The notes below the pieces were generated by a model. That model was not told the origin of the DNA, did no database searches, and was given only the letters and a program-made list of their open reading frames with translations. The position numbers and the translations under genes are program-made. 29,423 bases of DNA from a virus, in IMG/VR virus record IMGVR_UViG_3300046516_001015, positions 1 to 29,423 of that record; one strand, written 5' to 3'. Shown in pieces: positions 2,499 through 28,631 of this stretch (position 1 is its first letter; every line of letters begins with the position of its first letter).

Positions 2499-4136
2499 AT
2501 GCCAGCGCCAAACCTCGCCCCCGCCCTCGCCAACGGCCAGGCCGGGGCCCTCGTGCGCAATAGCGGCAACCCGGCCCCGCGGGGCGAGCTCGCCGGGCCG
2601 ACCCTGGCGAGGATCGAAAGCGAGCTCCGGGAGGGACTCCCCAACGAACGCGACCGGCTATCCCACGCGCTCACGAACCTCGAGTTTTACGAGGGGGACT
2701 TTTCCCGCCACCCCGTCAAACAATCGGGGGGGTCTTACGATTCCTACCGATTCCAGCGCCATACCCTCTTGATGCAACGGGTCGTCAAGACCCTGACCTC
2801 GAACCTGTACAAGGGCGGCCCGACCCGCAAGCTCCCGGATCACCCCGAGGCCGAGGAGTGGTTAGAAAACGTCTACCGTCGCCTCCTGGTCGACGCCTTA
2901 TGGCAACAAGCCGACCGGCTATCGATGGTCTCGGACGTGGCCGCGTTTCAGGTCGTCGGCTCGACCGACCCCGACTGTCCGGTCAAGATCCACTTATGGG
3001 ACGCCTCGACGTTTGCCGTGTGGGTCAATCCCGACGACCCCTGCCAGCCGGTCGCGGTCGCGACGATCGACCGCTATGACGAACAGACGAGAATGCGACT
3101 CTGGACCGCGGACCTGGTCCAGACGTGGTATAGCGAGAAGCTCGCGGCCGGTCAGACCGCGGGGGGCCGGGCGTTACGGTTCGCCGAGGAGGTCCCGAAC
3201 CCTTACGGGGTCATCCCGTTCGCGTTCGTCCATGTCGAGCTCCCGACCCGGCAATTCTGGACCGGGGGCTTTGGTACATTCCTCGCATCCGTGAATGATT
3301 ATGCCAACTTCTTTCTGACCGAACAGTCTGATTGTGTGCGCTACAACACGCGGCCCGTGATCGTCCTCAAAGGGGTCCGGCCCGGCTGGCGGCCCCCCTC
3401 GCCGATCCAGCCGGGGGACGTGTGGGACCTCCCGGCGGATTCGGGCGACGAGGCATCGAACCAGGCCCGGGACGCCTCGGCCGAATATCTCCAGGCCGAT
3501 ACCGGATTTATCCAGGCGGGTTGGGACGATTGCCAGCAATACCTCGACCACGTGTTGGAAATGGTCGGGGTCCCGCCCTCGACCATAAGGATGGAACAGC
3601 GGTCGGCCATGTCGGGCGTGGCGTTCGTGGCCGAACAAATTCCGCTCATCTTGTGGGCAATGGGCCGGCAACGGCCGTTCAGCCGTTACGAGGACGCGCT
3701 GGCGAAATTGACCCTGACCGTGGGGTCCAAGCATTTAGCCAATAACTACGTCTCCTCGAGCGTCCTCGAGGCCGCCGCGGCCGACCCCGGCCTCGTCTTA
3801 CGCTGGCCGGATATGTATCCCGATTTGCCGGGCCCCGACCGGGACAACGCGGACCAGTGGCTTTTAGATAACGGTATGACCTCGAGGACACAAATTCTCA
3901 TGCGTCGCGAACATCTTAGCCGCGAGGAGGCCGAGGCCCGGATCGTGGAAACCGCCGAGGACCTCAAGACCGAAAATGAGGTCCTCTCGGCGGCCGCCCC
4001 GGCCCCGGAGGCCCCGAAGAAAGCCAAGGAACAAGAGCTCGACGACGACGAGAACGACGACGAGGAAACGGACCTCGAGGACGACGACGACGAAACGGAC
4101 CCAGATCAGGCCGAGGACGACGACGACGAGGCTTGA
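2499..4136 (+). CDS. Portal protein
   Basis: This 545-residue protein lies directly downstream of the terminase block, the usual portal position. It forms the ring through which DNA enters the capsid. Early features are EFYEGDFSRHP (about residue 65 on) and an HTLLMQRVVKTLTSNLY helix, as in portals that begin with a basic alpha-helical region. The middle holds VNDYANFFLTEQSD and MEQRSAMSGVAFVAEQIPL. The C-terminus ends in an extreme acidic run of Asp/Glu residues (about 510-545), encoded by repeated GAC codons. Such acidic tails are seen in some portals and may contact the terminase or scaffold. The assignment rests on position, size and local motifs, not on a signature residue. It starts two bases after the methyltransferase stop. 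Confidence 0.78.
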   Translation: MPAPNLAPALANGQAGALVRNSGNPAPRGELAGPTLARIESELREGLPNERDRLSHALTNLEFYEGDFSRHPVKQSGGSYDSYRFQRHTLLMQRVVKTLTSNLYKGGPTRKLPDHPEAEEWLENVYRRLLVDALWQQADRLSMVSDVAAFQVVGSTDPDCPVKIHLWDASTFAVWVNPDDPCQPVAVATIDRYDEQTRMRLWTADLVQTWYSEKLAAGQTAGGRALRFAEEVPNPYGVIPFAFVHVELPTRQFWTGGFGTFLASVNDYANFFLTEQSDCVRYNTRPVIVLKGVRPGWRPPSPIQPGDVWDLPADSGDEASNQARDASAEYLQADTGFIQAGWDDCQQYLDHVLEMVGVPPSTIRMEQRSAMSGVAFVAEQIPLILWAMGRQRPFSRYEDALAKLTLTVGSKHLANNYVSSSVLEAAAADPGLVLRWPDMYPDLPGPDRDNADQWLLDNGMTSRTQILMRREHLSREEAEARIVETAEDLKTENEVLSAAAPAPEAPKKAKEQELDDDENDDEETDLEDDDDETDPDQAEDDDDEA

Positions 4137-4896: not shown

Positions 4897-5756
4897 CCCA
4901 GCTTCACCTGGGCGATTGCCTCGAGGTTATGGCCACGATCCCCCCGGGGTCGGTCGATGCGGTTATCACTGACCCGCCCTATCCGGAAATCGACCGGCCT
5001 TATGGGCGCATGACCGAGGCGGAATGGTCGGCCATGATGCGTCAGGTCGTCGGCGAGTGCCGACGTATCCTGAAACCCTCGGGGTCGGCCGTGTTCGTGT
5101 TGCAACCGAATAGTCGCAAGGTCGGTTCGATGCGGGCGTGGCTATGGGAATTCATGGCATGGTGTTGCCGGGAGTGGAACATAGTCCAAGACGTTTATTG
5201 GTGGAACACAAGCGCCTTGCCCGTAGGCGGCGCGATCACAGCCGATCTCTTACGGGGCAGTTTAAAGGCTTGCGTATGGCTAGGCTCTCCCGACTGTTTT
5301 CGTCTTCAATCAGCGGTTTTGCGGTGTCCTTCCAGGCGATGCGTATCAGGTGCAAATCAATTCGAGCGGAATGGAAGTCCAGGGATTCTCACGAGTGCAT
5401 CGGGCCGCAGTGTTGACCCCCTGAAAGGATATACGGCCTGGAAGCGTAGGGGCGGGACAACGCCATTTAATGTTTTAGACATGGGTGTAGGCGCAGGCCA
5501 GAAACAAGCGGGCGCCTTTGGGCATCCCGCCGGAACGCCCTTCGCCTTGTGTGACTGGTGGGTCCGCTACATCAGCCCGATAGACGGGGTCGTGTGCGAT
5601 CCGTTCATGGGTTCCGGGACGGTCGGCGTGGCCGCCTATGCCCGCGACCGCTCATTCATCGGCATCGAACGCGACCCCGCTTACTTCGCCACGGCCCAGG
5701 CCCGGCTGGCCCGGCAAGAGGCCCGCTACGCTCTCTTTGAACGACCGACCGGATAA
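4893..5756 (+). CDS. Second DNA methyltransferase, DPPY type
   Basis: A 287-residue paralogue of the 1544-2497 enzyme. The catalytic motif IV is TDPPY (D27-P-P-Y30), the form typical of N6-adenine methyltransferases. The AdoMet site is CDPFMGSGT (about residues 235-243). A central WLGSPDC motif begins at W129. The centre (about 5265-5450) is visibly lower in GC and less biased in codon use than the flanks, so it may have been acquired separately. The ends match the first enzyme almost base for base, including identical 27-, 25- and 22-base blocks. It probably has a different target sequence. Coupled to the preceding gene by ATGA. Confidence 0.85.
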   Translation: MTQLHLGDCLEVMATIPPGSVDAVITDPPYPEIDRPYGRMTEAEWSAMMRQVVGECRRILKPSGSAVFVLQPNSRKVGSMRAWLWEFMAWCCREWNIVQDVYWWNTSALPVGGAITADLLRGSLKACVWLGSPDCFRLQSAVLRCPSRRCVSGANQFERNGSPGILTSASGRSVDPLKGYTAWKRRGGTTPFNVLDMGVGAGQKQAGAFGHPAGTPFALCDWWVRYISPIDGVVCDPFMGSGTVGVAAYARDRSFIGIERDPAYFATAQARLARQEARYALFERPTG

Positions 5757-5761
5757 TTGAC

Positions 5762-6421
5762 ATGGCCGAATCTGATACCCTGATAAACAGTCTGAACCAG
5801 CGGATCGCGACCCTCGAGCGGGACCTGGCCCAGACCCGGGCCGAGAGTCGCAACCGCAAGATCCAGGGACGGACCCAGGCCGAAACACTCGCCGGAGTCA
5901 CAAAGGAACGTGACGACCTGGCCGCCTCGGTCGTCGCCCTCACGACGGAACGCGACCAGGCCCGGGCGCAACTGACCGCCGCCCCCGGCGAGCTCCAATT
6001 GAAGATCACTGAGTTAACGGACCAGATCAGGACCCGCGACCACAAGGCCCGGTTTACCGTCCTCGCGAAAGAGGCCGGATGCGACCCCGAGGCGATCGAC
6101 GCGGCCTGGGACCTGGCCGGTTACAAGCCGGACGCGGACGAACCGGACGACGCACGAATCACCGAATCCATCACGCGGGTCCAGTCGCGACTCCCGATGG
6201 CATTCAGACCGGCCCAGACGGGCCAAGCCAACGGCGCAGCCGCGCCAAAGAAAGCCCCCCTGGCCGCCGGCCTGGGGAGTGACCGGGGGTCCCCCGGAAC
6301 CGCTTCAAACAAGCTGAGGGTCACGAAGTCCCAAATGCGTGACCATAGCTTCATGAAGGCTAACCAGAAAGCCATTTCCGAGGCCGCGGCCGCCGGGTCT
6401 TTCGAGATCATCGACGGCTAG
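5762..6421 (+). CDS. Probable scaffolding protein
   Basis: A 219-residue protein immediately upstream of the coat gene. Scaffolds hold coat subunits in place during prohead assembly and then leave. The N-terminal half is long coiled coil (INSLNQRIATLERDLAQTR onward, about residues 8-100). A middle part follows (KARFTVLAKEAGCDPEAID, about 100-125). A disordered Pro/Ala/Gly linker comes next, and the C-terminus is short and basic with MRDHSFMKANQKAISEAA. Charged helix plus a small basic C-terminus before the coat gene is the usual scaffold design. No prohead protease gene is visible, so it is probably released intact, as in P22-like assembly. Assignment is by architecture and position. Confidence 0.65.
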   Translation: MAESDTLINSLNQRIATLERDLAQTRAESRNRKIQGRTQAETLAGVTKERDDLAASVVALTTERDQARAQLTAAPGELQLKITELTDQIRTRDHKARFTVLAKEAGCDPEAIDAAWDLAGYKPDADEPDDARITESITRVQSRLPMAFRPAQTGQANGAAAPKKAPLAAGLGSDRGSPGTASNKLRVTKSQMRDHSFMKANQKAISEAAAAGSFEIIDG

Positions 6422-6450
6422 TCTAGCGGTAAGTCTGAAAGGCCATACCC

Positions 6451-7383
6451 GTGGCCAATAGCGTCAGTGCATTCTGGCAAACGTTGGTGGCGGCCGCGAC
6501 CGAGGCCAGCCAGCTCCTGGCCCCCAACTGGCGGGCCATCGAATCCATCTATATGGATTACTCGCCGATCCCCGCGACCATCGGGCAGACGCTCGATATC
6601 GCGATCCCCGGCGACCCGACGAGTTCCGTGAGTGATATCGGCGTGGGCGATGCGATCCTGACCGACTTTGCATTCACCAACGTTCCCATGACGTTCAATA
6701 ATCACCCCGAATACGGCGTGATTATCCGGGACTTCGAGCAGTACAACAGTCCGGACTCGATCCGGACCCGGATCACCGACCCGGCCCTGAAAGGGGTGAA
6801 GTCTTATATCAACAAACAGGTTTGCGCCCTCTTCACCACGGGCAATTTCGCGATCAACCCCGCGATTGCCACGACCGGCCATATCATCACGACGACCCAG
6901 GCCCTCGCGGGTTATGCGGTCCTCAGCGATAAATTCGTCCCGGTCCAGGACAATCCCCAGGATATGTCCTTGATGACCGGGTCGATCCCCTATGCGATGT
7001 TCCTCGGGGACGCCAACTGGACCAGCGCCCAGATCGCCGGGTATCGGACGACCGACGTTGTCCGGGAAACCGGTGTCATGCCGGTCGCCTATGGATTCCA
7101 GCTCAAGCTCGACCAGCAATGCCCGGTCTCCGGTACCGCCCCCTCGCGGACGTTCACGGGGGCCCTCTTTCACAAATGGGCGGTCGCGATGGCCACGCGG
7201 CCAATCGCGACCCCGGAAACCACGGTCGTCGAGGTCACCACCGTCGATTTTGCGGGCGTGCCCCTGCGCGTCATGCTCTCTTACAACCACCTCAAACTCG
7301 GCTGGATCGTGACCATCGACGCGGGTTACGCGCTGAAAGTCGTCCGGCCGGAAATGTGCCAGCTTTACACGATCGCCGAGTGA
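6451..7383 (+). CDS. Major capsid (coat) protein
   Basis: A 310-residue protein with a GTG start and an AAAGG ribosome binding site. It has the size and position of an HK97-fold coat protein of the P22-like/phage coat families. Visible features are the helical N-terminus (VSAFWQTLVAAATEASQLL), the segment ILTDFAFTNVPMTFNNH and the end LGWIVTIDAGYALKVVRPE, which resembles the closing strand of P22-type coats. It follows the scaffold and is followed by a strong hairpin with a short T tract, as expected for a very highly expressed gene. There is no cleaved delta domain or protease nearby. The family is inferred from motif style and context. Confidence 0.8.
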   Translation: MANSVSAFWQTLVAAATEASQLLAPNWRAIESIYMDYSPIPATIGQTLDIAIPGDPTSSVSDIGVGDAILTDFAFTNVPMTFNNHPEYGVIIRDFEQYNSPDSIRTRITDPALKGVKSYINKQVCALFTTGNFAINPAIATTGHIITTTQALAGYAVLSDKFVPVQDNPQDMSLMTGSIPYAMFLGDANWTSAQIAGYRTTDVVRETGVMPVAYGFQLKLDQQCPVSGTAPSRTFTGALFHKWAVAMATRPIATPETTVVEVTTVDFAGVPLRVMLSYNHLKLGWIVTIDAGYALKVVRPEMCQLYTIAE

Positions 7384-9933: not shown

Positions 9934-10314
9934 ATGCCCACGTTCACGCGGACCGAGGCGGACGTTCTCGGGACGTTTGCGGCCCCCGTGGCGATTGCGG
10001 CCGGGGCGAGCTCGACGACCGGGCCCCTCGACCTGACCGGGGCGAACACGTCCGACGGGGTCTTGACGGTCGTCCTCATCATCGGCGGGACCGCCCCCTC
10101 GACCCCGCCGACCGTGACGTTCAACGAATCGCTCGACGGGACCAATTACGAGGGGGTCTTGACGGTCGTGTGTGCCAACGTCGCGAGCACGCGCTATAGC
10201 TACCCGTATACCCCGAGTCACCCGGCGGTCAAGAAAGTCACGGCCACCGTGACCAATGGCGCGACGACCGGCATAACCGCCTATGCCCAGACCTCGACCC
10301 GGGCGATCGCCTGA
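9934..10314 (+). CDS. Hypothetical virion protein, 126 aa
   Basis: The ATG at 9934 sits eight bases after a GAGGGA site, better than the upstream in-frame start. The protein is all-beta by pattern (VAIAAGASSTTGPLDLTGAN, GVLTVVLIIGGTAPS, VTFNESLDGTNYE) and ends AYAQTSTRAIA. The motif around NESLDGTNYEGVLTVVCANV is reminiscent of small phage proteins that act as decoration or head-tail accessory subunits. It is two bases from the next gene. Function unassigned. Confidence 0.6.
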   Translation: MPTFTRTEADVLGTFAAPVAIAAGASSTTGPLDLTGANTSDGVLTVVLIIGGTAPSTPPTVTFNESLDGTNYEGVLTVVCANVASTRYSYPYTPSHPAVKKVTATVTNGATTGITAYAQTSTRAIA

Positions 10315-24510: not shown

Positions 24511-25464
24511 CTACGCGGTCGCCTGGCCCCGAGCGGGCCCGTAGCGGATCTCCCGGCAAGCCAGCGCGATGGCCGCCGAGTCGTCGAGGTGAAGATAGCG
24601 CTGGGTCGTCCGGATGTCCCGGTGGCCCAGAACTTTCTGGACCACCCATATCGGGACGTCCCAGCGATCGAGGCAATGCGACGCATAGGCGTGCCGCAAG
24701 CTGTGCCAGGTAATGTGCGGGATGCCGACCCCCCGGGCGAACGCTTGCAACTGGTCGAGCGATCGGGCCCCGTAGCTCCCCCCGGTCCAGGGTCCGACCC
24801 GTTTCGTCCCGGGAAAGAGCCACGGCGAGTCGACGAGCTCGACCCAGGGTCTGAGGACCTCGACCAGGACCCCCGGCAACGGGACGGTCCGGCTCGAGCT
24901 CGCCGTCTTGAGTCGGTTCGCCCCCCTCGGCACGATCGCCAGTGAACCCGCGTTCAGGTCGAGGTCCCCCGGCAGCGCGTGCACAACCTCGCCGAGGCGG
25001 GCCCCCGTCAAGGCGAGGGTCCAGGCCAGCGCGCACAACCGATGGCCCGGCCACGTCGCCCGGGCCTCTAGCAGCCCCGCCAAGAGGCGTTCGAGTTCGG
25101 GGTAGGGTCGCGGGACGTTGACGCGCGCCGGGCTCTCCCTGGGCCGGATACGGCGAAAATTCGGGCCGTGGGTCAAATATCCCTCCTCGACGGCGATCGA
25201 GCAAATGGCCGAGGCCGTGCCGAGGAGGCCGTTGGTTGTGTTGGGGTTTGGAGTTACGTCGGGACCGGTCCGGGAGGCGATCCAGCGGGCTACTGTACGG
25301 GTGGTCAGGTCGGCGGTCGAGTGGACCCCCAGCGCGGGGGCCGCGAGCTCCCGGAGGACCTGCCGGACCCGCAAATAAGTCTTCCGGGCGTGCCGTCCGC
25401 TGGAATAAATTTGCAGAACCTGGGCGGAAAATTCCGGAAACGGGAGATGCGAGGGTGGCGACAT
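24511..25464 (-). CDS. int: Tyrosine-family integrase
   Basis: A 317-residue site-specific recombinase that would insert the phage into the host tRNA gene. The N-terminal part has an arm/core-binding helical domain. The catalytic set is complete, counted from the ATG at 25464: R156 in LTGARLGE, K186 in RLKTASSSR, H254 and R257 in HSLRHAY, H281 in LGHRD and Y290 in TQRYLHL. This start was chosen because GGGGA lies eight bases upstream on the - strand. An in-frame ATG 33 bases earlier has no ribosome binding site. It ends close to the ribbon-helix-helix gene and begins about 75 bases from the tRNA-derived attachment site, the usual int-attP arrangement. Confidence 0.93.
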   Translation of the reverse strand: MSPPSHLPFPEFSAQVLQIYSSGRHARKTYLRVRQVLRELAAPALGVHSTADLTTRTVARWIASRTGPDVTPNPNTTNGLLGTASAICSIAVEEGYLTHGPNFRRIRPRESPARVNVPRPYPELERLLAGLLEARATWPGHRLCALAWTLALTGARLGEVVHALPGDLDLNAGSLAIVPRGANRLKTASSSRTVPLPGVLVEVLRPWVELVDSPWLFPGTKRVGPWTGGSYGARSLDQLQAFARGVGIPHITWHSLRHAYASHCLDRWDVPIWVVQKVLGHRDIRTTQRYLHLDDSAAIALACREIRYGPARGQATA

Positions 25465-25537
25465 GACAGGGTCCCCAGTCGTAAGGGGGATCCCCATTAT
25501 AACTTATGGAAAATCCGGCGGGGTTCGAGGCGGCGGA

Positions 25538-25579
25538 TTCGCAATGCGAAGGTTGAGGGTTCGACCCCCTTCCGCTCCA
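25538..25579 (+). other. Probable attP: 3' half of a tRNA-Ala(CGC) gene
   Basis: 42 bases fit a tRNA from the anticodon loop to the discriminator base. They comprise loop TTCGCAA (25538-25544, anticodon CGC at 25540-25542), anticodon 3' strand, variable region, T stem GAGGG / CCCTT with loop TTCGACC, 3' acceptor strand CCGCTCC and A73. Position 70 is U, as in the G3-U70 pair that marks alanine tRNAs. CCA is not encoded. Bases before 25538 do not form a D arm or a 5' acceptor, so this is half a tRNA. A 13-base dyad TTCGCA-A-TGCGAA (25538-25550) would be the likely crossover core, next to the integrase gene. Confidence 0.8.
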
Positions 25580-25671
25580 ATCGTCCGGAACTGTGCGGTT
25601 CCGGACGGACGTGAGCCGGCTGGTATGGAAACCTTGGTTTCTGTACTTTGTGCGGCCCATGGGTACCTCAG

Positions 25672-25721
25672 AACCGGCCTCCTGGCGAGCGGGCTAATGC
25701 ACAACCAGGGGGCCGGTTTTT
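25672..25721 (+). terminator. Terminator-type hairpin, unit 1
   Basis: Stem 25672-25685 pairs with 25705-25718: 14 pairs including one G-U. The 19-base loop is CGAGCGGGCTAATGCACAA, followed by TTTTT (25717-25721). It is a strong rho-independent terminator shape for + strand transcription. The whole loop recurs exactly at 27546. Confidence 0.75.
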
Positions 25722-25761
25722 CCCTTTGAATCAAGCCTCGATCGGATAAACTCGCTTGCTC
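25722..25761 (+). promoter_or_regulatory. Promoter-like conserved spacer between units 1 and 2
   Basis: 40 bases that match 25821-25860 at 35 positions. CTTTGA and TAAACT are 17 bases apart, a possible -35/-10 pair that would start transcription near the GGGTATCTC of unit 2. The match to consensus is modest, so a promoter is only a possibility; the conservation itself is clear. Confidence 0.35.
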
Positions 25762-25771
25762 GGGTATCTCG

Positions 25772-25820
25772 AGCCGGCCCCCGTTCAGCCCGCTAAAGCA
25801 AGAGACGGGGGTCGGCTTTT
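25772..25820 (+). terminator. Terminator-type hairpin, unit 2
   Basis: A 13-pair stem (25772-25784 with 25805-25817, one G-U) with a 20-base loop containing CGCTAAAGCAAGAG, followed by TTTT (25817-25820). The stem bases differ from unit 1 while pairing is kept. Confidence 0.75.
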
Positions 25821-25860
25821 CCCTTTCAATCAAGCCTCGATCGAATAGAATCGCGTGCTC
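25821..25860 (+). promoter_or_regulatory. Promoter-like conserved spacer between units 2 and 3
   Basis: Second copy of the conserved spacer. CTTTCA and TAGAAT are separated by 17 bases; TAGAAT matches the -10 consensus at five of six positions. It would start transcription about where unit 3 begins. Confidence 0.4.
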
Positions 25861-25871
25861 GGGTATCTCAG

Positions 25872-25918
25872 AACCGGTCCCCGTTCCGCGGGCAAAGCAA
25901 GAGCGGGGGTCGGTTTTT
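25872..25918 (+). terminator. Terminator-type hairpin, unit 3
   Basis: A stem of about 12-13 pairs (25872-25883/4 with 25903/4-25915, with G-U pairs) and a loop containing GGGCAAAGCAAGAG, followed by TTTTT (25914-25918). It ends at the stop of the converging replication gene. Confidence 0.75.
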
Positions 25919-27319
25919 CTATGCGCTCGGGTCAGGGTCCGGGGACCGGTCCAGGCTTTCGAGGATCGCATCCAGCGCTTTCCGCCAGGCCGGCGCGAGC
26001 ATGTGATCGGGGTCCGCCTCGATCTGGGCCGCCAGCCGATCCCGTGACTCGACCAGGTTCGCCCGGTCATGCCCCCGGATCTGGTCGGCGGTTTGACCTC
26101 CTCGGCCACGGCGGACCCGGCCCAGGGTCGGGACCGGAACCGGAACCGGGGCGGGGCCGGGTTCCGGGGCCGGAGGCGGGGCGGTCACGGCCTCGGCCGG
26201 GACGGGGTCGAGGCCGTGATCCCGGAGGAATTGGGCCGCCAGCCGGCCGGCCGGATGTTTCGGCCCGAATTGCCGGATCACGTCCCGGGCCTCCTCGACC
26301 TGGTCCGGCGTGGCCAGCGGCTGGATCTCTGGGGGCGGAACCGACACCGGGGGCGGGGGCGGAACCGACACCGGGGGCGGGGCCTCGACCGGCGCGGCCG
26401 GGGCGACCACGACCGCCGCGGGTGGGGGGGCCTCGGCCCGGGGACCCACGGCGAGGCCGCGGGGCGGTCGACCCGCCTTGAAGTCGCGCACCGCCCCGAA
26501 GAATCGTTTGCCCCGGCATTCCGACCCCGGTCGCCGGGCCAGGCCGATCGCCTCCTCGACCTGGCCCTCGGCCAGCCGGCCAGCCTGGACGTCCCGGGCC
26601 ACCCCGCGGTACCGGGCCGCCCATTGGTTCCAGTCGGCCGCCGCGATCCCCGGGTCAAACCCGGCATACACCCGGCCTTGAAGCTCCCGGGCCAGATCCG
26701 CGACCGCCTCCTCGGCTCTGGTAAGCTCTATGGTTTGCGTCGTTTGCGGACTCTGGGCATTTTCTCCCTCGCGTGCGCACGCGAATTCGATCGATCGATC
26801 GTTAATTTCGTCCTTATTCAGACCTTCGTTCTTATTAGGGTGACGTTTTCGACACCCGAAACGCGTGACGTTTTCGTCACCCGGCGCGGGACGTTTCCGT
26901 CCATGGAAGGTCGCGGACTTCGCGAGCTTGAGACGGAGGATCGCCTCGGCTATCTCCTCCCGGGAGGCGACCGGAAGGTCAGGGTTCGCCCGCCGGAGGA
27001 GGAGGATCCCGATCCGGCCTGGCTGGCCGGGTGGGGCCTCGATCCGGAGAATCCATCCCTCAGCCTCGAGCTCGCCGAGGATCCGGATCGTCGCCCGCAC
27101 CGAGAGGCGTAAAGCCTGGGCGAGGTCCTCATTCCCGACCCAACAGGAACAGCGGGCCCGGCATCGACCCTCGAGAACGAGCAAGGCCCAGCCCAGCCGA
27201 TGGCCGAGTTCGGGCCGATCCAGAAACGAATTCGGGACCAGGTTTTTCCATTCCTGAAACCGGACCGCCGCGGGGGGCGGTTCGCTGGTCGTGACGGGGC
27301 GGGCCGATACGGGGGTCAT
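25919..27319 (-). CDS. Replication initiator-like protein with winged-helix N-terminus
   Basis: A 466-residue protein. Residues about 20-110 (WKNLVPNSFLDRPELGHRLG, NEDLAQALRLSVRATIRILG, LEAEGWILRIEA) make a winged helix like those of phage replication O/DnaD-type proteins. A basic, Asn-rich part follows (RKRP, DENVT, CRKRH, about 148-175), then a helical domain, then Pro/Ala linkers with PPPVSVPPPPPVSVPPPE. The helical C-terminus ends AWRKALDAILESLDRSP. The ATG overlaps the upstream stop (ATGA) and has AGGGGG before it. The gene's interior carries an iteron-like cluster (26838-26899). Role inferred from fold, place beside a Rad52-family gene and origin-like DNA. Codons in the middle are lower in GC than the flanks. 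Confidence 0.6.
   Translation of the reverse strand: MTPVSARPVTTSEPPPAAVRFQEWKNLVPNSFLDRPELGHRLGWALLVLEGRCRARCSCWVGNEDLAQALRLSVRATIRILGELEAEGWILRIEAPPGQPGRIGILLLRRANPDLPVASREEIAEAILRLKLAKSATFHGRKRPAPGDENVTRFGCRKRHPNKNEGLNKDEINDRSIEFACAREGENAQSPQTTQTIELTRAEEAVADLARELQGRVYAGFDPGIAAADWNQWAARYRGVARDVQAGRLAEGQVEEAIGLARRPGSECRGKRFFGAVRDFKAGRPPRGLAVGPRAEAPPPAAVVVAPAAPVEAPPPVSVPPPPPVSVPPPEIQPLATPDQVEEARDVIRQFGPKHPAGRLAAQFLRDHGLDPVPAEAVTAPPPAPEPGPAPVPVPVPTLGRVRRGRGGQTADQIRGHDRANLVESRDRLAAQIEADPDHMLAPAWRKALDAILESLDRSPDPDPSA
26838..26899. other. Candidate replication origin with three iteron-like repeats
   Basis: GTGACGTTTTCG occurs at 26840-26851 and 26865-26876, and a related GGGACGTTTCCG at 26888-26899, spaced 25 and 23 bases. 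Two form dyads, GGGTG...CACCC (26838-26857) and GTGACG-TTTT-CGTCAC (26865-26880). The bases before them (about 26785-26838) are AT-rich with a GATCGATCGATC run. The middle copy is in another codon phase than the outer two, so the likeness is in the DNA and not the protein. Confidence 0.55.
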
Positions 27320-27516
27320 GACCGACCCCCTTTCACGACGATGATTCCGTCGTCATCGACGGTCCAGGCGAATTGCTCGGGCCTCCGGAACGCCTCGAGT
27401 AGCGTCCGATCCCGAGAATCGGGCCGCGAATGGCTAGTTAGCGAATTTGCGCGGGTTTCCTGTCGCGTCCGGGCGTCGACGCGCGTACAATCACCACGTG
27501 GGGTGGCGCGACTCAT
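27316..27516 (-). CDS. Small hypothetical protein, 66 aa
   Basis: The ATG at 27516 follows GAGG with an eight-base spacing, better than the upstream in-frame start at 27564. The N-terminus is Arg/Thr-rich and basic (SRATPRGDCTRVDARTRQET), the C-terminus compact (FRRPEQFAWTVDDDGIIVVK). It overlaps the replication gene start by ATGA and so is coupled to it. The basic part may bind nucleic acid. No family is recognised. Confidence 0.6.
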   Translation of the reverse strand: MSRATPRGDCTRVDARTRQETRANSLTSHSRPDSRDRTLLEAFRRPEQFAWTVDDDGIIVVKGGRS

Positions 27517-27758
27517 GTCGGGTACCTCATAGGATGAATGCGGGTCGAGCGGGCTAATGCACAACCCTGCAAACGTCCAGTTAGTAAGGGGTCCGTGATC
27601 TACGCTCAGCCCCGGGCCCGCCGTGTGTCACGATGACATGCGACGGTCTCGGGGCTTTGTGCAATCCTCTCGTTTGAGAGTCTGGGCGAAATGTGAAGGA
27701 TCGGCGGATCCTACTTTCCCGGTTCCGAACCTATCGCGCCCTCCTGGGAACCGCAAGG
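27517..27758 (-). promoter_or_regulatory. Intergenic region with a cluster of perfect dyads
   Basis: About 240 bases without a gene, upstream of the replication genes on the - strand. Besides the hairpin-unit copy it contains several elements. A nested hairpin has AGCCCCG/CGGGGCT (27608-27614 with 27650-27656) enclosing CCGT/ACGG and TGTCA-CGA-TGACA. The others are CTCTC-GTTT-GAGAG (27667-27680), AGGATC-GGCG-GATCCT (27697-27712) and GGTTC-C-GAACC (27721-27731). Four different dyads in 124 bases suggest operators or structured RNA controlling the replication genes. No clear promoter hexamers are seen. Confidence 0.5.
27520..27571. repeat. Diverged fourth copy of the hairpin unit
   Basis: GGGTACCTCA (27520-27529) and the full 19-base loop CGAGCGGGCTAATGCACAA (27546-27564) of unit 1 recur here, spaced almost as in the array. 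The stem is different and shorter (TGC-GGG with CCC-GCA, one bulge), and there is no T run. It lies just upstream of the 66-aa gene, covering its ribosome binding site on the - strand. Confidence 0.7.
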
Positions 27759-28242: not shown

Positions 28243-28310
28243 TTCGAAGCTCCAAAGCCCGGCCAGGGGTCGGAACCCCGGCCGGGCGAGTGGTGGGAAG
28301 GGTCAGGGGT
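28243..28310 (-). repeat. Repeated leader cassette, copy A (hairpin + ribosome binding site)
   Basis: 68 bases matching 28564-28631 at 65 positions. On the - strand it runs from the stop of the preceding gene through a strong hairpin (28257-28287, stem GCCCGGCC/GGCCGGGC with inner GGGGT/ACCCC), a TTT, and the GGAG that serves the next gene. It may act as an attenuator or mRNA processing site that sets the level of the gene after it. Confidence 0.8.
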
Positions 28311-28563: not shown

Positions 28564-28631
28564 TTCGAAGCTCCAAAGCCCGGCCAGGGGTCGGGACCCC
28601 GGCCGGGCGCGTGATGGGAAGGGTCAGGGGT
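28564..28631 (-). repeat. Repeated leader cassette, copy B (hairpin + ribosome binding site)
   Basis: Second copy of the 68-base cassette, between the Rad52-like gene and the zinc-knuckle gene. The hairpin is at 28578-28608. The three differences from copy A do not break the outer stem; one lies in the loop. Confidence 0.8.

Follow-up and report, generated by a model that had tools for sequence, protein, structure and literature searches.

A terminator hairpin beside the attachment site of an environmental phage probably encodes a two-site antisense RNA against the phage's own replication leader

Why a phage should carry a row of three terminator-like hairpins, with stems that differ and loops that resemble each other, between its integrase and its replication operon is the question raised by the locus described here. 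In the usual view, repressor proteins are what silences temperate phages, and RNA-based phage immunity is, to our knowledge, known mainly from P4 and P1/P7; among plasmids, replication of R1 is under antisense control by CopA. The locus lies in a 29,423-base IMG/VR phage contig (the window, that is, the whole stretch analysed), which encodes a terminase, methyltransferases, tail-type genes, a tyrosine integrase and a minus-strand operon. Between the integrase and this operon are the 3′ half of a tRNA and the three hairpin units, both on the plus strand (Table 1). Judged from the sequence, the hairpin device most likely serves as an RNA off-switch for the virus's own replication, and we put at roughly 85% the probability that unit 1 is a trans-encoded, two-site antisense RNA blocking translation of the replication genes.

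Table 1 Positions of the hairpin units, their surroundings and the proposed target in the window
Feature	Position	Strand	Remarks
Tyrosine integrase	24511..25497	-	PF00589 E 1e-17; phrog_1 E 3e-45
tRNA 3′ half (T-arm + acceptor strand)	25538..25579	+	T-arm/acceptor match; reads towards unit 1; presumed attachment core
Putative antisense unit 1 (cognate)	25661..25721	+	Tail, terminator hairpin, T run to 25721
Unit 1 5′ tail	25661-25670	+	GGGTACCTCA
Unit 1 terminator hairpin	25670-25720	+	Loop block CGAGCGGGCTAATGCACAACC at 25686-25706
Spacer preceding unit 2	25722..25761	+	Promoter-like TTGAAT-15-TAAACT, weak consensus match
Antisense-like unit 2 (orphan)	25762..25821	+	Tail GGGTATCTCG 25762-25771; hairpin 25770-25819; diverged loop CAGCCCGCTAAAGCAAGA
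Spacer preceding unit 3	25821..25860	+	Promoter-like CTTTCA-17-TAGAAT
Antisense-like unit 3 (orphan)	25861..25920	+	Tail GGGTATCTCA 25861-25870; hairpin 25869-25918; loop CGCGGGCAAAGCAA
Replication-initiator-like winged-helix gene, 466 aa	25919..27319	-	Downstream (last) gene of the operon
Leader ORF (66 codons)	27316..27516	-	Ends ATGA; 4-nt overlap of its TGA with the ATG of the next gene
Target site A	27520..27529	-	TGAGGTACCC; Shine-Dalgarno GAGGT; exact complement of the unit 1 5′ tail
Target site B	27546..27566	-	Loop of the leader hairpin; exactly complementary to the loop block of unit 1

The units occupy about 25661-25925 at a spacing of ~99 bp, each with a strong stem-loop followed by T's, which bears out an earlier note on this DNA that had described three tandem units of ~100 bp with T runs. 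The stems are, as that note also held, unlike in sequence yet paired in all three units, but they measure 16–18 bp, with G-U pairs and up to two mismatches counted, instead of the 12–14 bp given there. Fold energies range from −28.9 to −34.8 kcal/mol per unit, varying with the ends chosen, at z about −3.5 to −3.9 against dinucleotide shuffles. The loop core said to be shared, GCTAAWGCAMRA, is exact in units 1 and 2 and at a site near 27.5 kb, but unit 3 has GGCAAAGCAAGA, which is one base short of it. Rfam returned no family at the gathering threshold over the whole window, and at E ≤ 5 only a sub-threshold match to a Brucella sRNA, elsewhere than the units.

The site near 27.5 kb had been counted as a fourth copy, and thus as a fourth small RNA; it turns out to be the target, read on the other strand. 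At 27520-27566, two blocks (10 and 21 nt) are identical to blocks of unit 1 and stand in the same order, with unrelated sequence between them (gaps of 15 versus 16 nt); the site has no T run and nothing of the unit 1 stem. Because both blocks recur in the leader on the opposite strand, a unit 1 RNA would be a perfect two-block antisense to the replication leader. The minus strand at the target reads GGTTGTGCATTAGCCCGCTCG, 16 nt, TGAGGTACCC, GAC and ATG, with the Shine-Dalgarno GAGGT seven bases ahead of the ATG at 27516, and the leader block folds as a hairpin with the stretch complementary to unit 1 in its loop. Gene and target are ~1.8–2.2 kb apart on opposite strands, and unit 1 has its own terminator. 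In 200 shuffles of the window the block match to unit 1 reached at most 12 nt, as against 21 nt in the real sequence. The gene downstream of the leader ORF gave weak matches to phrog_270 ‘replication initiation protein’ (E 7e-4), to the O-like phrog_678 (E 4e-3) and to Pfam HTH_Crp_2 (E 1e-3), and its protein had no match in phage or plasmid collections.

We infer that the RNA is produced and that it acts on translation, on the coupled replication gene and in lysogeny and immunity in the following way. Unit 1 would encode a trans-acting antisense RNA of about 60–65 nt, made of a 5′ tail and a terminator hairpin with a 19-nt loop. The terminator loop would kiss the loop of the leader hairpin and the tail would zip onto the Shine-Dalgarno region, so that ribosomes could not translate the short leader ORF and, via the 4-nt stop/start overlap, the replication-initiator gene would be shut off too. 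In a lysogen, this would keep prophage replication silent and confer immunity against phages with the same leader. The earlier proposal of a family of ~60–70-nt small RNAs with the loop as the active part is partly supported, for size, terminator and loop, but the tail would be a second active part, and only unit 1 has a cognate target in this contig.

Our prediction, set beforehand, was that relatives would keep the complementarity while letting the letters change. Five relatives, fetched by terminase (G002, G009, G003) or integrase alignment (G012, G018) and not by the hairpin repeat, all have a hairpin beside int whose loop has an exact same-strand copy in the replication-operon leader. The loop blocks are 22 (G002), 20 (G009), 24 (G003), 15 (G012) and 19 nt (G018) long, and a second, tail block lies at the ribosome-binding region, with lengths of 8, 13, ~7–9 (with wobble), 10 and 7 nt in the same order; this tail complementarity is short in G002, G003 and G018, and the start codon is uncertain in G003 and G018. 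In G002 the hairpin lies between rep and int, and its loop block AAGCTCTCACACTTGGACCCGG has one further same-strand copy (6796-6817), which precedes a leader ORF by 36 nt. The G009 unit has the loop block GGGAACTTGACCGGGACCCG and the tail TCCTTTCTGGATT; both are found again at 37042-37087, where the 26-nt offset between them is preserved, and this tail is antisense to AATCCAGAAAGGA, which immediately precedes an ATG. In G012 the tail is likewise antisense to ACCACAAGGA, ahead of an ATG. The target site forms a local hairpin around the loop complement in six of six phages, putative antisense gene and target are at separate loci in all six, and the six loops are mutually unrelated in sequence, so that the same self-matching design is written each time in other letters. 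The order of int, tRNA fragment, antisense unit and a replication operon in the opposite direction is fixed. The stop of the leader ORF overlaps the next start by 4 nt in all five phages that have a leader ORF (window, G002, G003, G009 and G012), an arrangement that would be expected of translational coupling, and in G018 the first replication-like gene seems to be targeted directly, at its own start. Downstream, the genes encode O-like initiators (window, G002) or AAA_25 helicase/primase-like proteins (G009, G012); the control device is therefore more conserved than what it controls.

The pairing might be real and nevertheless act on the leader otherwise than by blocking ribosomes, through early termination of its transcription or cleavage by RNase III, as in P4 immunity, where the CI RNA works through transcription termination of its replication operon (PMC4825925). 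We consider this unlikely, though with a real chance of being right. In the window, G009 and G012 the tail block falls on the Shine-Dalgarno region, which favours a translational block as the best fit over the P4 mode without settling the matter.

Specificity was assessed across the six phages. Full-length antisense/leader duplexes gave −77 to −101 kcal/mol when both partners came from the same phage and −39 to −65 kcal/mol when they did not, and a loop-only duplex scan of the whole contig on both strands ranked the replication leader first in 6/6 (z −6.3 to −9.7). Scans with the whole RNA were blurred by the GC-rich stems, and placed the unit 1 leader second and the G018 leader outside the top six. 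Against 19 other phage contigs the longest exact match of the units was 12–14 nt, compared with 15–24 nt in the own contig (five cognate units scored, G018 left out). When IMG/VR was scanned for exact copies of the unit 1 core, six matches came up, all apparently coding; neither the tail block nor the hairpin accompanied any of them. In the earlier note, loops that drift at the pace of the stems had been named as an outcome that would count against an active loop. The drift is indeed complete, but each loop has changed together with the leader it matches, and this is better support than conserved loops alone would have been.

The match between loop and leader also bears on two explanations that need no RNA pairing. 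If the hairpins were merely terminators of the attachment-site tRNA that insulate the prophage edge, with the array a tandem duplication, one would expect what is seen in every relative examined, namely hairpins that follow the tRNA fragment in the same direction; the folds are moreover excellent intrinsic terminators, and units 2 and 3 have no target that we found. Termination, however, needs no particular loop, yet the loops match the leader over 15–24 nt in six diverged phages, and the second matching block lies outside the hairpin, so that we regard this explanation as quite improbable. In systems of this kind, direct repeats often occur at two places, near int and rep, and the shared blocks could accordingly be DNA sites (iterons or operators) for a regulatory or replication protein near attP and the rep promoter. 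Protein sites leave unpredicted the hairpin in whose loop one copy always lies, and the second block keeps a fixed spacing over an unrelated stem; the blocks also coincide with ribosome-binding regions, are non-palindromic and are wholly different in each phage. This makes protein sites very improbable. Integron attC sites, REP-like DNA elements and plain terminators were rejected because the loops have a cognate target.

Including the window, the pair is present in six of the ten phages with a comparable integrase and a readable flank. Three others (G014, G016 and G017) have a strong hairpin at the same place and no cognate replication leader in their contigs, which may be incomplete, and G011, likewise perhaps an incomplete contig, has no such hairpin. 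The best loop target in G014 lacks Shine-Dalgarno context and was not counted. In G017 (L106), the hairpin at 10237-10287 beside int has a loop of which 17 nt are complementary to a second recombinase gene (2996-3012); this match lies inside the coding sequence and was not counted either, and the hairpin is possibly an antisense RNA with another target, or the match is due to chance. G001, which has the terminase closest to that of the window (73%), carries nearly identical copies of a 38-nt hairpin (26459-26508 and 6414-6451; L079/L080) in the 5′ UTRs of two genes that are unrelated and separated by 20 kb, and we treat this 5′-UTR repeat ahead of two genes as a separate matter. Copies of a dispersed ~100-bp element with the hairpin CTCCCGATCGCACGGTCGGGAG were seen in G006 (L094) at 87-121, 3520-3718 and 5744-5833.

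Units 2 and 3 keep a strong terminator, compensated stems and a promoter-like spacer. Their tails (GGGTAYCTCR) can pair with the Shine-Dalgarno region through one or two G-U pairs, but their loops fit the own leader no better than background (−48.6 and −54.1 kcal/mol). Exact-match and loop-only scans gave no target for them elsewhere in the contig, and among the matches listed from two unspecific 14-mer scans of the collections none had a sensibly placed tail block. These units could be copies in decay, specificities kept in reserve, or RNAs directed at other phages. A bolder and rather doubtful reading is that the array is a store of antisense specificities, in which units 2 and 3 silence the replication leaders of other phages and unit 1 is perhaps switched on only after integration via the host tRNA promoter; if true, units 2 and 3 would give RNA-only heterotypic immunity.

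The earlier note gave each unit its own promoter and terminator. The terminators stand, and so does the identity of the spacers at exactly 35 of 40 positions (25722-25761 versus 25821-25860), but there are only two such spacers and none lies ahead of unit 1, for which comparison with shuffles showed no promoter-like pair above chance. The -35/-10 pairs, said to be 17 bases apart, are modestly better than shuffles: the unit 3 pair does have a spacing of 17 and is weak (equalled by 8% of shuffles), but that of unit 2 has a spacing of 15 (equalled by 18%). A generic sigma-70 scan found no promoter, and for unit 1, G009 and G018 any promoter is weak or missing. The tRNA fragment ends ~80 nt before unit 1, and once the phage has integrated, transcription of the reconstituted host tRNA gene would enter the unit at that distance; it is possible, as a guess from position, that unit 1 is expressed only in the integrated state.

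The window holds no complete tRNA. In every relative that could be read the tRNA fragment points towards the unit; G003 has a tRNA 5′ part without the T-arm, and G002 has an apparently nearly complete tRNA. Upstream of int in G014 (L103) and G017 (L106), a second T-arm/acceptor remnant stands directly before the hairpin, after the first fragment, which suggests accreted attachment sites. Two more perfect or near-perfect hairpins, GTCCGGAAC...GTTCCGGAC and GGTATGGAAACC...GGTTTCTGTACT, lie at 25581-25656 of the window between the tRNA 3′ fragment and unit 1, and are possible integrase, excisionase or repressor sites. Further along, a 68-bp direct repeat (28243-28310 and 28564-28631; 96% identical, 321 bp apart) lies around a small minus-strand ORF. 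A planctomycete host, as suggested in the earlier note, was not confirmed: a search of genome contigs with an integrase fragment returned no planctomycete. Single-sequence searches of viral contigs with the integrase and rep of the window gave no matches. The six phage contigs, which may be incomplete, contain no S24-type repressor, and HTH_3 was above the cut-off only in G012; as G012 thus has a protein of a phage-repressor class, the RNA need not be the sole control.

One hairpin with a tail beside attP would make a compact and apparently undescribed module, conserved among environmental phages whose replication genes are as unlike as O-like initiators and AAA helicases. As gene and target lie apart, every phage must change both together, and the system is therefore well suited to studying how a code for RNA-RNA recognition can be altered and still work. 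A rule for searches also emerges, namely a terminator-hairpin loop near int that repeats in the replication leader, and such loop/leader pairs could predict immunity groups from sequence.

We found no published description of such an arrangement among open-licence papers, and by the tests made the unit 1 system belongs to none of the known ones: it has no Rfam match, no antirepressor target and is not cis-encoded. The CI RNA of P4 (with seqA and seqC) is a small, element-encoded antisense RNA that represses the element's own replication operon via the leader and gives immunity (PMC4825925), and a leader of the own replication operon is likewise the predicted target here, by complementarity in six phages; P4's RNA, however, arises by processing of that operon's own leader transcript and makes transcription terminate, whereas here a separate terminator hairpin stands beside attP on the opposite strand, with a tail over the Shine-Dalgarno region. 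The c4 RNA of P1/P7 (RF01695) binds around a ribosome-binding site with loop-borne complementary blocks and gives phage-specific heteroimmunity (PMC12197685), features that recur here in the placing of the blocks, their position in a loop and their specificity for each phage; c4 targets the antirepressor (ant/icd) mRNA, in contrast to a leader ORF and a replication-initiator-like gene here, and the fold here is one terminator hairpin. In architecture there is a likeness to RNAII of pMV158, a single-stranded 5′ tail with one terminator hairpin that inhibits translation of the replication initiator (PMC4485353); RNAII is cis-encoded opposite its target, so that complementarity is automatic, and its 6-nt loop is minor, whereas here gene and target are separated by the ~1.8–2.2 kb noted above and a long loop carries most of the match. 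In plasmid R1, finally, replication is controlled by way of a leader peptide, the translation of which is coupled to the replication gene (tap-repA; summarised in PMC5304414), and the leader ORF adjoining rep, here with a 4-nt overlap, would be its counterpart; CopA/CopT is cis-encoded and controls plasmid copy number, whereas the RNA proposed here would be trans-encoded and serve an integrating phage.
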